A stretch of 10,123 bases of DNA, taken from the NCBI GenBank assembly GCA_903920405.1, contig CAIXMC010000395.1:1-10123 (forward strand), in the 5' to 3' direction. The notes beneath the pieces were generated by a model. That model was not told where the DNA came from. It did not search any database and saw nothing but the letters and a program-made list of their open reading frames with translations. Shown here in pieces: positions 2,240 through 10,123 of the stretch (its first letter is position 1; every line of letters starts with the position of its first letter). Source of the stretch: an uncultured beta proteobacterium. Its GTDB lineage: Bacteria; Pseudomonadota; Gammaproteobacteria; Burkholderiales; Burkholderiaceae_C. Both the position numbers and the translations under genes were made by a program.

Positions 2240-4583
<2,344 letters not shown>

Positions 4584-4610
4584 GGGATTACTTATCTTCA
4601 TCCGTTACTA

Positions 4611-5525
4611 ATGAAAAAATACATCTCAGAATCTGGAATCAATCGTCGCAATGAGTGGATTGAGGAAATTTGTAAGTTAAGTGGTCATTTCGGGGTTGAT
4701 TCAGATCGATTGGAAAAAGAACTTTCCGATGAAATCAAGAGAGATGGTCTGGCATCTTTAATTGATCATTTGCGACTGAGCGGAAACATTCCAGAATGTT
4801 ATCCACATGATTCCAGTGAAGAAAAATTGTATTCCAAATATACAGATGCACTGCTGGCAGAAACTTTTAAGAATTTGGGTTTGAAAAGTCTGGTCTTAAA
4901 GGAAAGGGCAGATGCAGCAGATGTTGAGGTATTTGCAAAAGAATACAGTTTTGTTGCCGATGCAAAGGCTTTTCGTCTCAGCCGAACAGCCAAAAATCAG
5001 AAAGATTTTAAGGTTCAAGCCATGGACGGATGGAAACGTGGCAAACCTTATGCGATGGTTGTTTGCCCTATCTACCAGTTGCCACACAAATCTAGCCAAA
5101 TTTATGAGCAGGCGAGTGCAAGAAATGTATGTATTTTCACTTACTCCCATTTAGCAATGTTGGTCGCTTATGCTCAGCATGATGGTTACGGCAAAGCCGA
5201 AGAATTGTTACATAAAATTTTTAAAACAATACCAGCATTAATCCCATCAAAAGAATCTTCCAACTATTGGCTTGCGGTCAATAAAACGATGCTTGAATTT
5301 TCAAATATACTGGATGAATTGTGGAAAATTGAAAAGCAGGCGGCCATAGAATCCATAGCTATTGCAAAAAATGAAGCACTTACTTTTCTGGCACATGAGA
5401 GAGAATCCATCATGAAAATGACGCATGAGGATGCTCTCAAAGAATTGGTAAGAGCTTACAATATTGAAAATAAAATTCAGATTATAAAATCAGTGACTGA
5501 TAATAATATATTGGAAATAAGGTAA
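4611..5525 (+). CDS. HindIII-family type II restriction endonuclease
   Basis: The 304-residue product matches R.HindIII (300 residues) as I remember it. Residues 115-135, from VADAK through FRLSRTAKNQKDFKV, are nearly identical to the HindIII catalytic region. The PD-(D/E)xK nuclease core is visible as D104 in AADVEV and D117-A-K119 in VADAK. By family, it would cut double-stranded A^AGCTT as a dimer needing magnesium. It lies six bases before its methyltransferase on the same strand, with no controller gene. It is AT-rich: sample 60-base lines run about 40% GC, falling to about 17% at 5461-5520, against about 68% for one line of serS. This suggests horizontal gain. The ATG at 4611 lacks a ribosome-binding site and lies 27 bases after serS, so translation may depend on serS read-through. 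Family is secure; exact specificity is inferred. Confidence 0.93.
   Translation: MKKYISESGINRRNEWIEEICKLSGHFGVDSDRLEKELSDEIKRDGLASLIDHLRLSGNIPECYPHDSSEEKLYSKYTDALLAETFKNLGLKSLVLKERADAADVEVFAKEYSFVADAKAFRLSRTAKNQKDFKVQAMDGWKRGKPYAMVVCPIYQLPHKSSQIYEQASARNVCIFTYSHLAMLVAYAQHDGYGKAEELLHKIFKTIPALIPSKESSNYWLAVNKTMLEFSNILDELWKIEKQAAIESIAIAKNEALTFLAHERESIMKMTHEDALKELVRAYNIENKIQIIKSVTDNNILEIR
5476..5504 (+). promoter_or_regulatory. Candidate internal promoter for the methyltransferase
   Basis: TTCAGA (5476-5481, four of six to TTGACA) is followed after 17 bases by GATAAT (5499-5504, five of six to TATAAT), inside the very AT-rich 3' end of the endonuclease gene. Transcription would begin near 5511 and include the AAGG ribosome-binding site at 5519. 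A separate methylase promoter makes sense where the endonuclease is first in order. AT-rich sequence gives such matches easily by chance. Confidence 0.35.
5519..5522 (+). promoter_or_regulatory. Ribosome-binding site of the methyltransferase
   Basis: AAGG lies nine bases before the ATG at 5532 and overlaps the last codons of the endonuclease gene. It is one of the few clear Shine-Dalgarno sites in this gene cluster, so the methyltransferase may be translated better than the endonuclease. Confidence 0.55.
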
Positions 5526-5531
5526 ATACTA

Positions 5532-6386
5532 ATGGAAAATTATGAATTTGTAAACCATATTTTGCATGGAGATTGTCTGCACATCATGCAAAAAATGAAT
5601 GCAGATTCAGTTGACATGGTATTGACATCGCCTCCGTATGATAATTTAAGGACGTATAACGGATTTATTTTTCCCTTTCAAAATATTGCACGTCAACTGT
5701 ATCGCGTCGTGAAAAAAGGGGGAGTTGTGGTATGGGTTGTCAATGATGCAACGGTAGATGGAAGTGAAACCGGAACCAGTTTCACACAAGCACTTTTTTT
5801 CAAGGAAGTAGGTTTTAATTTGCACGATACCATGATATTTCGCAAAAAGAATCCAATCCCGCAAATCTACAGAAAGCGCTACAACAACGAATTTGAATAT
5901 ATGTTTGTATTCAGCAAAGGCCCCGTAGAGACGCACAATCCCATCATGGTTGATTGTCTTCATGCTGGCTTGGAACTTAACGGAACAACTTATAAAAATT
6001 ACTCAAAAAGTGAACAAAAACGAGAGAAAATGGCAAGTCCTGTTAAATCAAAAAAGATCAAGGGGAATATATGGGAATATGTTGTTGGAAAAAACCTTGA
6101 AGACCAGGAAGCCAAAGACCACCCCGCGCCATTTCCATGTGAGTTAGCTCGCGATCATATTTCATCATGGTCAAATGCTGGTGATTTAATTCTTGATCCC
6201 ATGTGCGGGAGCGGAACCACTTGCAAAGTAGCAAAGCAAATGGGGCGAAATTTTGTAGGTATTGATATCAGTGAACAATATTGCGAACTAGCCAAGCGTC
6301 GCCTTGCAATCCATTCTGAAGTGCCATTCAACAAGACGCGCAACGATGAATATGCACAGGGTCATTTTTTATTTCAAATGTCTTGA
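5532..6386 (+). CDS. DNA adenine-N6 methyltransferase, HindIII family (beta class)
   Basis: This is the modification partner of the preceding endonuclease; by family it transfers a methyl group from S-adenosylmethionine to adenine N6 in AAGCTT. The catalytic motif IV TSPPYDN is at 32-38. The AdoMet-binding motif I comes late, as LDPMCGSGTT (221-230), then motif II FVGIDISEQY (241-250). The order IV, target-recognition region, I defines the beta class, as in M.HindIII. The middle (about 100-195), lysine-rich with EQKREKMASPVKSKKIKGN, should hold the target-recognition region. HPAPFP (197-202) fits motif X. The 284 residues are slightly short for the family (about 300), but all motifs are present. 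It shares the AT-rich composition of the endonuclease. The stop lies 18 bases before glyQ. Confidence 0.93.
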   Translation: MENYEFVNHILHGDCLHIMQKMNADSVDMVLTSPPYDNLRTYNGFIFPFQNIARQLYRVVKKGGVVVWVVNDATVDGSETGTSFTQALFFKEVGFNLHDTMIFRKKNPIPQIYRKRYNNEFEYMFVFSKGPVETHNPIMVDCLHAGLELNGTTYKNYSKSEQKREKMASPVKSKKIKGNIWEYVVGKNLEDQEAKDHPAPFPCELARDHISSWSNAGDLILDPMCGSGTTCKVAKQMGRNFVGIDISEQYCELAKRRLAIHSEVPFNKTRNDEYAQGHFLFQMS

Positions 6387-6404
6387 ATTTAACTCCATAT
6401 TTCC

Positions 6405-7325
6405 ATGTTGTCCTTCCAGCAAATTATTCTGAAACTCCAATCCTATTGGGATACCCAAGGCTGCGCCTTATTGCAACCCTATGACATGGAAGTGGGCGCG
6501 GGCACATCGCACACCGCAACGTTTTTAAGGGCACTGGGCCCTGAGCCTTGGAAGTGCGCTTATGTGCAGCCCAGTCGCCGCCCCAAAGATGGTCGTTATG
6601 GCGAAAACCCTAATCGATTGCAGCATTACTACCAATATCAAGTGGTGATGAAACCTGCCCCCAGCAATATGATGGATTTGTATTTGGGCAGCCTGGAATC
6701 TTTGGGTTTTGATTTAAAACAAAATGACATTCGTTTTGTTGAAGATGATTGGGAAAACCCTACACTGGGTGCCTGGGGTTTGGGCTGGGAGGTTTGGTTG
6801 AATGGCATGGAGGTGACCCAGTTCACTTATTTTCAGCAGGTGGGGGGTATTGATTGCAAACCGATTACTGGCGAGATCACTTATGGTCTGGAGCGCCTGG
6901 CCATGTATTTGCAAGGGGTGGATAACGTTTATAACCTGACCTGGACAGAAAGTGCCGATGGCAATAAACTGACGTATGGCGATGTTTATCTACAAAACGA
7001 AATCGAACAATCCGCCTATAACTTTGAACACAGCGATGCCGATTTTTTATTCACCGCTTTTACTGCGCATGAGCGAGAGGCCAAACATTTGATGGACGTG
7101 CAGTTGGCATTACCGGCTTACGAACAGGTACTCAAATGCGCTCACAGTTTCAATTTGCTCGACGCACGCGGCGCCATCAGCGTGACTGAGCGCGCAGCTT
7201 ACATTGGCCGCATTCGCACCCTGGCACGCAGCGTGGCGCAAAGCTACTTTGACAGCCGCGAGCGTCTTGGCTTTCCCATGGCTTCGCGCGAGTGGGTGGC
7301 GCAGATGGTTCAAAAAGCGGCTTGA
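6405..7325 (+). CDS. glyQ: Glycyl-tRNA synthetase alpha subunit
   Basis: GlyQ is the catalytic alpha subunit of the bacterial alpha2beta2 glycyl-tRNA synthetase, forming glycyl-adenylate. The 306-residue product carries the family's blocks: [19 protein letters not shown] (31-49), [20 protein letters not shown] (54-73), [19 protein letters not shown] (113-131), [14 protein letters not shown] (135-148) and [14 protein letters not shown] (157-170). Length is normal (about 300). The start at 6405 gives the expected [15 protein letters not shown]; no clear ribosome-binding site precedes it. It begins 18 bases after the methyltransferase and its TGA overlaps the ATG of the following ATPase gene by one base. 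Its partner glyS is normally directly downstream but is here 1.77 kb away, separated by the ATPase-TOPRIM gene. Confidence 0.97.
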
Positions 7326-9067
7326 TGGTTTCTATGCTGACTCGTCTTTGTATCCGTTACTTCAAGCAGTTTGACCAGGCCGACATCAATTTATCGTCGG
7401 CAGTGGTTTTTATTGGGCCAAACAACTCAGGCAAAACAACAGCATTGCAAGCGTTGGCTTTGTGGGATGCTGCTTGCAAGCAGTGGCTGGTCAGGCGATC
7501 GGTGGGGACTGTCAAAGAAGCGGCCAAAGGCATCACCATCGGTCGCAAAGACTTGGTCTATTTGTCCCTGCCAAGCGCAAATGCACTGTGGAAAGACTTG
7601 CGTGTCCGTGAGGGATACCGTGACAATGGCAAGACAAAAACCAAAAATATTCTGATTGAAATTACGGTTGAAGGGTGCAATGCGTTGGGCGACTGGCAAT
7701 GCGGGTTTGAATTTGAATACGCCAATGAAGCGTTTTTTTACTGCCGCCCCTTGCGTCAGGGGAGTTCTGCCACGCGCATGGCCGTTCCATCTGAAGCATT
7801 AGCTGAGGTCAGACTGGCTTTTTTGCCGCCCATCAGTGGGTTGTTGATGGAAGAACCTCTGCTGTCGCCCGGTCGAGTCGATGTTTTACTGGGCAGTGGA
7901 CGCGGCGGCGAGGTTCTGCGTAACCTGTGTTATGCCTTGTATGAACGCCATGACGACAGTTGGGAGAGTGTGGTTTTGCATCTCCAGACGCTGTTTGGAG
8001 TCACGCTGCACCATCCTGTCTTTGTCAGTCAGTTGGGAACGATCGAGTTGGACTATGAACGCCCGGGCAGCACGGTTTGTTTGGCCTTGACATCTGCGGG
8101 TTTGGGCATGTTGCAGACACTGCAATTGGTGGTTTATCTGTACCTTCAGCCTGGGTCTGTTTTGTTGCTCGATGAGCCAGATGCCCATCTTGAGGTACTG
8201 CGCCAGCGGCAGGTTTATCAATTACTGGTTGAATTGGCACGTCAAAATCAAAGCCAGTTGATTTGTGCCAGCCATTCTGAAGTGGTGTTGAATGAGGCCG
8301 TTGCACGCGATACTGTGATTGCGTTTATTGGCAACCCGCATACAGTGTCCGGCAACAAAGGCGCGCAGGTGTTGAAGGCACTCAAGGACATTGGGTTTGA
8401 ACATTACATGCAGGCTGTGCAAACCGGCTGGGTGTTGTACCTTGAAGGCAGCACAGACTTGGCCATTTTGCAGGCCTGGGCCAAACGGCTGAATCACCCC
8501 GCACAAGAGGTATTGGCCAAGCCTTTTGTGCATTACCTGAATACCAATGTTCCCAGTGTGGCGCGACTTCACTTTAACGCCGTCCGAGAAGCCAACCCTG
8601 ACCTGATTGGCGTGGCACTTTTTGACCAACTCGACGTTTCACCTCAAAGTGCGCAAGAAGGCTTGGTGGACGTACAGTGGAAAAGGCGCGAAATTGAAAA
8701 CTATTTTGCAATGCCTGACGTGTTGCTGGCCTTTGCCCAAGGCGATGTGACCGATGATTTGATAGAGGATGCAAAGGCGCAAAGTCGCAGAGCAGCCATG
8801 CAGGAAACCCTTGCCGAAGTACAGGCCGCCGTTCAAACTTTGGGCGATGATCTCTGGGATGTCAACCGCAAGGCCAGTGAACAGGTGTTGCCGCCTGTAT
8901 TAAACCGTTACTTTGCCAAAACCCAAGACCGTCGCGTTCCGTCCAAAGGTGCGTTTTATACGCTGATAGATTATCAACACGCAGACTCAGTGGATGCCGA
9001 AGTAGTTGAAAAACTTGACTTAATTCACAGTGTTGCCCATCGTGCCAAAACATACCCCAACCCATAA
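7325..9067 (+). CDS. OLD-like AAA ATPase with C-terminal TOPRIM domain
   Basis: The 580-residue product has an ABC/SMC-type ATPase followed by a TOPRIM-like region, as in OLD-family nucleases. Walker A is GPNNSGKTT (31-39), a signature-like TSAGLGMLQTLQL spans 256-268, Walker B is VLLLDEPDAHLE (279-290; D283, E284), and ASHSE (315-319) carries the H-loop histidine H317. The TOPRIM region shows YLEGSTDLA (372-380; E374, D378), LFDQLD (432-437; D434, D437) and KRREIENYF (453-461), a pattern I recall from uncharacterised ATPase-TOPRIM proteins. By family it may be an ATP-gated nuclease acting in phage defence; that is inferred. No GajB-like helicase or other partner is visible. The ATG at 7325 overlaps the glyQ stop as TGATG; GTG 7292 and ATG 7334 are alternatives. 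Composition is host-like. A fused PARIS-type protein is an alternative reading. Confidence 0.8.
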   Translation: MVSMLTRLCIRYFKQFDQADINLSSAVVFIGPNNSGKTTALQALALWDAACKQWLVRRSVGTVKEAAKGITIGRKDLVYLSLPSANALWKDLRVREGYRDNGKTKTKNILIEITVEGCNALGDWQCGFEFEYANEAFFYCRPLRQGSSATRMAVPSEALAEVRLAFLPPISGLLMEEPLLSPGRVDVLLGSGRGGEVLRNLCYALYERHDDSWESVVLHLQTLFGVTLHHPVFVSQLGTIELDYERPGSTVCLALTSAGLGMLQTLQLVVYLYLQPGSVLLLDEPDAHLEVLRQRQVYQLLVELARQNQSQLICASHSEVVLNEAVARDTVIAFIGNPHTVSGNKGAQVLKALKDIGFEHYMQAVQTGWVLYLEGSTDLAILQAWAKRLNHPAQEVLAKPFVHYLNTNVPSVARLHFNAVREANPDLIGVALFDQLDVSPQSAQEGLVDVQWKRREIENYFAMPDVLLAFAQGDVTDDLIEDAKAQSRRAAMQETLAEVQAAVQTLGDDLWDVNRKASEQVLPPVLNRYFAKTQDRRVPSKGAFYTLIDYQHADSVDAEVVEKLDLIHSVAHRAKTYPNP

Positions 9068-9092
9068 ACCATCATTCCATCAACCCATAAAC
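9058..9092 (+). repeat. 12-bp direct repeat at the ATPase/glyS junction
   Basis: CAACCCATAAAC occurs at 9058-9069 and again at 9081-9092, 23 bases apart. The first copy contains the stop codon of the ATPase gene; the second lies directly before the glyS start at 9096. It could be a local slippage duplication or a scar of the event that placed the ATPase gene between glyQ and glyS. No copy is seen at the glyQ side. Confidence 0.7.
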
Positions 9093-9095
9093 ACC

Positions 9096-10123
9096 ATGAA
9101 TCTTCTCGTTGAATTGCTGGTTGAAGAATTGCCACCCAAAGCACTGAAAAAATTGGGCGATGCCTTCGCGCAGCTTCTAGCTGAACAGTTGCGCAGCCAA
9201 GGCCTGGCAAGTGCTGAATCGGTGGTCACTCCCTTTGCCACACCGCGTCGGTTGGCGGTACACATCACGCAGGTACACACCAAAGCGCCAGTCAAAGTGG
9301 TGCAGCAAAAGCTCATGCCGGTGAGCGTTGGACTGGACGACGCGGGCAGTGCCAAACCTGCTCTGGTTAAAAAACTTCAGGCTTTGGGGATGGGCGCGCT
9401 GGATGTGACATCGTTATACAGGGCGATGGATGGTAAGGTCGAAGTCTTGTTTTATGACCGTCTGCTGCCAGGGGTCATGCTGACAGACGGTTTGCAGCAG
9501 GCGCTGGATGCGGCTATTGCCAATTTGCCCATTCCTAAAGTGATGAGCTACCCACTGGCGTCAGATGGCGAGTTGCCTGGTTGGAGCAGTGTGAAATTTG
9601 TGCGGCCGGCGCATGGTTTGGTGGCGCTGCACGGCAGTGCGGTGGTGCCGGTCAGGGTGCTGGGTTTAATGGCGGGCAACACCACGCTGGGGCACCGGTT
9701 TGAGGCACGCACATCGCCCGTGGTGATTGAGGAGGCTGATCATTACGAACAGACATTGCAAGACGATGGCGCAGTGATCGCCAGTTTTGCAAAGCGTCGT
9801 GCCGAGATGGTTCGACAGCTCGAATGTGCGGCGGCCAAGGTAGGGCAGGGCGCTTGTGTCATTCAAGATGATGATTTTCTTGATGAAGTCACCGCGCTGG
9901 TGGAACGCCCCAACGTGCTCGTCTGTCAATTTGACCCCCAATTTCTGAAAGTTCCCCAAGAGTGCCTGATTTTGACCATGAAGGCCAATCAGAAATATTT
10001 TCCGCTGCCAGATGCAAAAGGTCAATTGACGCACCACTTTTTGGTGGTCAGCAATATCACGCCCACAGACCCAAGTGCGGTCATCAGTGGCAACGAGCGC
10101 GTGGTGCGTCCACGTTTGAGCGA
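9096..10123 (+). CDS. glyS: Glycyl-tRNA synthetase beta subunit, 3' end cut by window
   Basis: GlyS is the tRNA-binding beta subunit of the alpha2beta2 glycyl-tRNA synthetase. The open frame runs from the ATG at 9096 to the window edge, giving 342 residues of a protein usually near 690. It starts with the typical MNLLVELLVEELPPKAL and contains TPRRLAV (49-55), GHRFEA (199-204), LTMKANQKYFPL (293-304) and SGNERVVRPRL (331-341), all matching the family. The anticodon-binding C-terminal half lies outside. The start is 28 bases after the ATPase stop and has no Shine-Dalgarno; the spacer is filled by a 12-bp direct repeat. Separation from glyQ means balanced subunit supply depends on transcription through the intervening ATPase gene. 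Confidence 0.96.
   Translation, partial: MNLLVELLVEELPPKALKKLGDAFAQLLAEQLRSQGLASAESVVTPFATPRRLAVHITQVHTKAPVKVVQQKLMPVSVGLDDAGSAKPALVKKLQALGMGALDVTSLYRAMDGKVEVLFYDRLLPGVMLTDGLQQALDAAIANLPIPKVMSYPLASDGELPGWSSVKFVRPAHGLVALHGSAVVPVRVLGLMAGNTTLGHRFEARTSPVVIEEADHYEQTLQDDGAVIASFAKRRAEMVRQLECAAAKVGQGACVIQDDDFLDEVTALVERPNVLVCQFDPQFLKVPQECLILTMKANQKYFPLPDAKGQLTHHFLVVSNITPTDPSAVISGNERVVRPRLS

Follow-up and report, generated by a model that had tools for sequence, protein, structure and literature searches.

An OLD-like ATPase gene with TOPRIM-like motifs between glyQ and glyS, at a junction that recurrently carries toxin-antitoxin and restriction genes

The genes glyQ and glyS, which together encode an essential tRNA-charging enzyme, are separated in the DNA analysed here (the window, a stretch of 10,123 nucleotides taken as a whole) by one intact gene for an OLD-like ABC-ATPase with a TOPRIM-like C-terminus. 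In the bacterial family of the window this junction repeatedly harbours toxin-antitoxin and restriction genes. Judging by the intact reading frame, the conserved ATPase and putative metal-binding residues, the patchy distribution, the recurrence of one clade at the junction and the hotspot cargo, the gene probably encodes an OLD-like ATPase-nuclease that is accessory, acts alone and most likely counters phages, and it has probably long resided in this junction.

The gene order of the window is serS, a HindIII-like endonuclease, a DNA methyltransferase, glyQ, the OLD-like open reading frame and glyS. The upstream flank glyQ (6405..7325, + strand) matched NCBIfam TIGR00388 with 523.8 bits, above cut-off, and the downstream flank glyS (9096..10123, + strand, cut by the window end) was assigned by a glyS search and by reading of the junction. 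The single long open reading frame between them spans 7325-9067 and has 580 intact codons, as an earlier note on this DNA had described. That note also let the gene overlap the glyQ stop by one base. The corresponding ATG at 7325 is present, yet the homologs begin at the equivalent of the ATG at 7334 (MLT...). Thus the gene probably starts 8 bp past the glyQ stop and encodes 577 amino acids (7334..9067, + strand; 580 amino acids from ATG 7325), and the one-base overlap may be just an upstream ATG. The stop codon lies 28 bp ahead of the glyS ATG at 9096. The frame was covered to 97-100% by the 120 homologs listed (8000 were scored); judging by this near-full coverage and by the invariant Walker and TOPRIM-like residues in 121 sequences, it is not a chance frame. 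Between 6300 and 9300 one terminator-like site was detected, inside glyQ, versus 3.6 expected, and three promoter-like sites versus 2.4 expected. No tRNA gene was found in the window, no convincing flanking repeats at the borders of the OLD-like gene, and no integrase among the annotated reading frames of the window.

The predicted protein matched the Pfam families AAA_21 (73.6 bits) and AAA_15 (58.3 bits), both above cut-off, and no family reached its cut-off in the C-terminal third. Conservation was assessed in 121 sequences, i.e. the window protein and 120 homologs among the matches listed, which are 49-97% identical to it. K37, D283, E284, H317, E374, D378, D434 and E456 (580-residue numbering) were invariant in 121/121, and E458, K516 and K541 were conserved in 120/121. 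K37 is part of the Walker A motif GPNNSGKT (residues 31-38; 7415..7438, + strand), and D283 and E284 mark the Walker B region (8159..8194, + strand), in line with the AAA_21 match. The TOPRIM-like motif I, E374-x3-D378 (EGSTD; 8444..8458, + strand), aligns with VEGKT of P2 Old. As a TOPRIM-like second motif, D434-x-x-D437 (8624..8635, + strand) replaces DxD; position 437 was D in 70, E in 41 and another residue in 10 of the 121 sequences, and D-N-D was seen at the second motif in eight relatives with 36-40% identity. E456-x-E458 (8690..8698, + strand) supplies candidate metal ligands by motif. The earlier description of a single-gene ATPase with Walker A, Walker B and TOPRIM-like motifs was supported.

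The TOPRIM assignment of the C-terminus is at the level of motifs. With E values up to 10 allowed, neither PF20469 nor any other Pfam TOPRIM family matched the C-terminus of the window protein, the close homologs P0048 and L184 or eight further homologs, while P2 Old as a positive control matched PF20469 (OLD-like_TOPRIM) at 1.2e-17. Because PF20469 misses the C-terminus although it matches P2 Old, and because DxD is altered, we call the protein OLD-like and refrain from assigning it to OLD itself; as a family name, OLD was too strong. The closest solved structure by sequence was 6p74, a putative OLD-family endonuclease which we take to be Thermus scotoductus OLD; the match runs via ATPase stretches alone. 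These proteins make up a conserved OLD-like subfamily whose TOPRIM motif is altered.

Compared with Class 1 OLD proteins (P2 Old, Thermus scotoductus OLD, E. coli YbjD/OldB), the window protein is likewise encoded by a lone gene. Its ABC-ATPase also lies at the N-terminus, with Walker A and B split and a histidine (H317) in the H-loop position, and the C-terminus has the E-x3-D TOPRIM-like motif. Its length is near that of P2 Old (586 aa). It also shares the absence of a UvrD-like helicase partner, the flanks being glyQ and glyS in four lineages. On the other hand, unlike P2 Old it has no Pfam OLD-like_TOPRIM match, and the window subfamily replaces the DxD of Class 1 OLD by D-x-x followed mostly by D or E and has E-x-E where TsOLD has S-x-E. 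The family profile aligned with P2 Old over part of the ATPase only. PMC7049728 gives E377, D381, D431-x-D433, S478-x-E480 and R487 as metal-binding residues of TsOLD; set against this site, and matched by motif, E374, D378, D434 and E456-x-E458 are conserved and DxD is altered. According to PMC13261556, the phage phenotypes of the lone OLD gene YbjD are independent of its TOPRIM, so that nuclease action of the window protein is not to be assumed.

The best PADLOC hits of the window protein were NsnB (1.1e-22), AriA (1.9e-21) and mad3 (1.3e-16), with the best stretches limited to the ATPase or its edge. This ATPase module is common to the window protein and to AriA (PARIS), GajA (Gabija), PtuA (Septu), MAD3 and NsnB, and the NCBIfam scores were well under the cut-offs where these are listed (MADS3, 42.8 vs 420 bits; PtuA, 26.6 vs 500). 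The window gene is flanked by glyQ and glyS, not by the partner genes of these systems. No gajB helicase lies beside it, the next gene being glyS. With respect to PARIS, we found neither an AriB partner or fusion next to the gene nor a full-length AriA match, AriA models matching the ATPase only. DUF4435 was absent from the Pfam matches of the window.

The OLD-like gene is accessory, rare and patchy. In surveys that count the window's own genome and in which many genomes are incomplete, the own genome and 9/249 in its family matched at E 1e-60, with only G181 (58%) and G205 (47%) exceeding 40% identity; 2/89 genomes of the genus matched at E 1e-100, namely the own genome and G293 with a partial copy (47%, at the end of a contig other than the one with glyQ); and 4/399 genomes of the order matched at E 1e-120, namely the own genome, G620 (62%), G543 (49%) and G338 (50%). 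The gene is thus sporadic. Its occurrence in nearly all relatives, which the earlier note had named as a refutation, was not found: among the 89 genus genomes a close copy exists in the own genome only. A pattern scan of named genomes returned relatives from many phyla (best 80 of at least 519). None of 50,697 phage records matched, and 72,556 plasmid records yielded a single match, weak and partial (24% identity over 61% of the length); on these grounds, and for want of convincing flanking repeats, we rejected mobile-element cargo as a description of the gene. In genus-mates the junction was empty, the distance between glyQ and glyS being -1 to 151 bp in 28/28 further loci (L145-L172, among the matches listed; 52 genus genomes have glyQ), with 11 bp in ten loci and -1 in seven. 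A paralog in the own genome (L002:1492-3348, 39% identity) directly follows hsdS and carries the D-N-D motif, and the 47% homolog of G205 (L086:1504-3267) lies between fba and purC, another housekeeping junction.

Among the loci read, the four whose proteins are at least 54% identical to one another all have the gene between glyQ and glyS with an intact reading frame: the window, L005 (a Hydrogenophaga MAG), L006 (a Betaproteobacteria groundwater MAG) and G181 (from a different genus in the window's family). G620, from another family of the order, holds the same contig as L006, and the junction members span at least two families of the order. They fall within a clade of 41/128 proteins (support 0.9) with G205, G543 and G338 outside. 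In this clade P0021 and P0037 are the L005 and L006 proteins and 35 members are known as proteins only, so that 4/4 members of known context reside at the junction. Among the other homolog loci read, none had glyQ or glyS near the homolog; the synthetase genes looked for were these two and serS. The L005 and L006 proteins grouped together (support 1.0) with the window protein outside, while GlyQ of L005 shared 89.4% identity with the window and 84.6% with L006. This hints at transfer between lineages into the same site, four loci being few. Judging by L005 and its GlyQ identity, the window probably stems from a Comamonadaceae-like member of the Burkholderiales. Recent import of a whole glyQ-gene-glyS block was rejected because GlyQ and GlyS of the window were no closer to those of the other carriers (L005 89.4/70.2%, L006 81.7/65.6%, G181 83.1/66.2%) than to those of genus-mates (mean identity to 29 genus loci 90.7/70.2%), a weak test since within the genus set both window proteins rank lowest by mean identity. 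The OLD-like genes of L005 and G181 end in a stop codon that overlaps the glyS ATG, as read from the sequence. Together with the location of the only terminator-like site of 6300-9300 within glyQ this overlap points to a coupling to glyS.

Across the family, searches located glyQ in 241/250 genomes and glyS in 243/250. Positions from 149 genomes per gene gave 116 pairs on the same contig and strand from 115 genomes, G181 not included. The distance was at most 150 bp in 96 pairs, 150-400 bp in 5 and more than 400 bp in 15, own genome included. The other 14 long junctions contained PIN toxins (9), ParE (1), an Eco57I/MmeI-like enzyme (1; 1334 aa, L138:6262-10266 of G038), YdjM (2) and DUF4325/HATPase (1). 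The nine PIN-domain toxins were all above the Pfam cut-off; two antitoxins beside them were tested and both matched PF04014, and the other seven were judged by eye. Because the PIN proteins are 28-59% identical, except for one pair with 95%, they do not represent one recent arrival. In 3/15 long junctions the genes are not known as defence genes (YdjM twice, DUF4325/HATPase once). As a control, 0/92 pheS-pheT pairs were more than 400 bp beyond the median distance (97 genomes were taken from those listed; three with the genes on different contigs and two without a second listing were dropped). The difference between 15/116 and 0/92 had a Fisher P of 1.6e-4, or 3.2e-4 without the own genome, a comparison that ignores relatedness and partly uses other genomes in the two sets; restricted to the 49 shared genomes, the count of long junctions was 5 vs 0. 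In a literature search of limited coverage, by which absence is not proven, no paper had a title or abstract opening on a glyQ-glyS insertion hotspot.

A link of the broader family to defence is provided by its neighbours. A search seeded with three R-M proteins detected type III-like Res or Mod within 3 kb of the homolog in 12/94 loci (L006 being counted twice, as L006 and L183), adjacent in 11 of them and about 1.5 kb away in L083; the other 82/94 loci had no type III-like neighbour within 3 kb. Pfam confirmed ResIII in L007, L028, L043 and L184 and N6_N4_Mtase in L010, L043 and L184. A neighbour scan of 80 loci, six of them without a gene call, gave 146 immediate neighbours from 74 loci; 43 of these, mostly short or antisense reading frames, were dropped by eye, and the remaining 103 plus two second neighbours made up the 105 frames used. 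They included ResIII in six, N6_N4_Mtase in four and type III methyltransferase models in up to five cases. In 105 control frames, drawn at random from 237 more than 4.5 kb away, ResIII and N6_N4_Mtase were not among the families with two or more members. Across the broad family most neighbours look metabolic or unknown. The type III-like R-M neighbourhood, a minority of loci, thus supports a predicted defence role, as does the position of the own-genome paralog behind hsdS. The candidate defence nuclease of the earlier note agrees with the data as to the single gene, its sporadic occurrence and the R-M genes beside some relatives (12/94). In L043 and L184 the gene order is mod-homolog-res with type III-like R-M genes, a candidate three-gene system.

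R-M genes are also found in the window itself, immediately upstream of glyQ: a HindIII-like restriction endonuclease between serS and glyQ (4611..5525, + strand; PF09518, E 1.8e-114) and beside it an N6/N4 DNA methyltransferase (5532..6386, + strand; PF01555, E 4.1e-49). Their position, and the distant homologs that adjoin R-M genes, would fit one defence island that comprises the OLD-like gene and has engulfed glyQ. Base composition made us disfavour this: the endonuclease has 37.3% GC (GC3 32.8) and the methyltransferase 39.6% (GC3 36.5), versus 51.3% (GC3 54.8) for the OLD-like gene and 50.4% (GC3 55.7) for glyQ. In addition, both R-M proteins of the window were absent from L006 and from L085 of G181 in tblastn searches, L005 being uninformative as it starts inside glyQ. 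A common island is very doubtful. By composition the R-M pair looks like a separate, recent arrival, and the OLD-like gene looks long resident. The same GC likeness to the neighbours would suit a housekeeping ATPase of the RecF/SMC-like or Cran1-like kind that was inherited vertically and lost from most relatives, and an OLD-family ATPase of archaea, Cran1, is indispensable for the cell cycle to proceed (PMC12796447). Yet a close copy occurs in 1/89 genus genomes, and the own genome plus 9/249 in the family match at E 1e-60; the pairing of the L005 and L006 proteins against GlyQ kinship (89.4 vs 84.6%) moreover suggests transfer. With this patchiness in genus, family and order we hold a housekeeping gene to be very unlikely. 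Rarity could also mean a passive passenger, landed by chance and drifting without function. Catalytic residues that do not vary across 121 sequences of 49-97% identity to the window, and an intact frame in four members at the same junction in four lineages, render such drift highly improbable.

Another reading ties the function of the protein to glycyl-tRNA synthetase (GlyRS): it would sense the enzyme or glycyl-tRNA, or cut tRNA, and this would explain its retention in the operon. One clade at the exact junction in at least two families and the stop/start overlap with glyS in two lineages speak for it. VapC, which includes tRNA-cleaving members, is the commonest other cargo of the junction. 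TOPRIM/OLD systems can target tRNA, AriB of PARIS being a tRNA-cleaving example (PMC12409363), and P2 Old is said to cleave a host tRNA (PMC13261556). On the other hand, the same junction holds unrelated cargo, nearly all genus-mates lack the gene, and some more distant relatives adjoin R-M genes or occupy the fba-purC interval; at no other locus read was glyQ or glyS close to the homolog. Cargo of such variety makes a dedicated sensor of glycyl-tRNA less plausible, and we consider the tie to GlyRS unlikely. The special sensing of translation or tRNA status suggested in the earlier note is thus unsupported so far, given the unrelated PIN, ParE, Eco57I/MmeI-like and YdjM cargo in relatives and the absence of glyQ and glyS near any other homolog locus read. 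A more elaborate version, likewise unlikely in our view, would make the junction a dedicated berth for conflict genes, whose cargo is retained through translational coupling to an essential synthetase subunit, with the OLD-like clade tied to GlyRS or glycyl-tRNA and its nuclease triggered by phage interference with translation.

We therefore favour an accessory anti-phage gene long resident in the junction. Such a gene would be transcribed together with glyQ and glyS and hence always be expressed. Deletions reaching glyQ or glyS would be lethal, whereby the site would guard its cargo from loss, and nonsense mutations in the OLD-like gene may reduce glyS expression by polarity, which would favour retention. 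Upon infection, sensed perhaps by the ATPase part, the ATPase might release the activity of an ATP-controlled, metal-dependent TOPRIM nuclease directed at DNA or tRNA, so that the phage is blocked or the cell stopped.

Defence genes are thought to be quickly gained and lost, mostly on mobile elements. Our data suggest that an essential operon can act as a safe berth for defence, toxin-antitoxin or restriction genes. If true, a hotspot in a two-subunit essential operon, with neither integrase nor repeats seen, would be another way to keep defence genes, in which the essential neighbour pays for the expression of the cargo and punishes its loss. Junctions of split essential operons may then serve as a search rule for single-gene defence systems. 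The site resembles the chromosomal and prophage defence hotspots described in PMC10250203 (P. aeruginosa core hotspots) and PMC9122126 (P2/P4 hotspots) in being fixed and having variable defence cargo. Unlike these it is located within a two-gene essential operon, its cargo usually amounts to one or two genes, and the window has no tRNA, convincing flanking repeat or annotated integrase.

Two minor observations concern glyQ and its surroundings. In the window serS is upstream of glyQ (3273-7325), while it was beside glyQ in 0/57 loci of relatives with about 1.5 kb visible on each side. In many relatives the upstream neighbour of glyQ is, by eye, lnt, which in the own genome is on another contig and is directly followed by a gene encoding MerR and Resolvase domains (coordinates including L186:2939-3574), an arrangement known from IS607-type elements. 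Either the serS-R-M-glyQ locus was rearranged or the MAG contig is misjoined. In three genus-mates (G286, G281 and G274) the GlyQ match breaks after residue 184-185 and resumes past 69 to 141 extra bp with the frame open, which suggests that GlyQ carries an in-frame insertion there.
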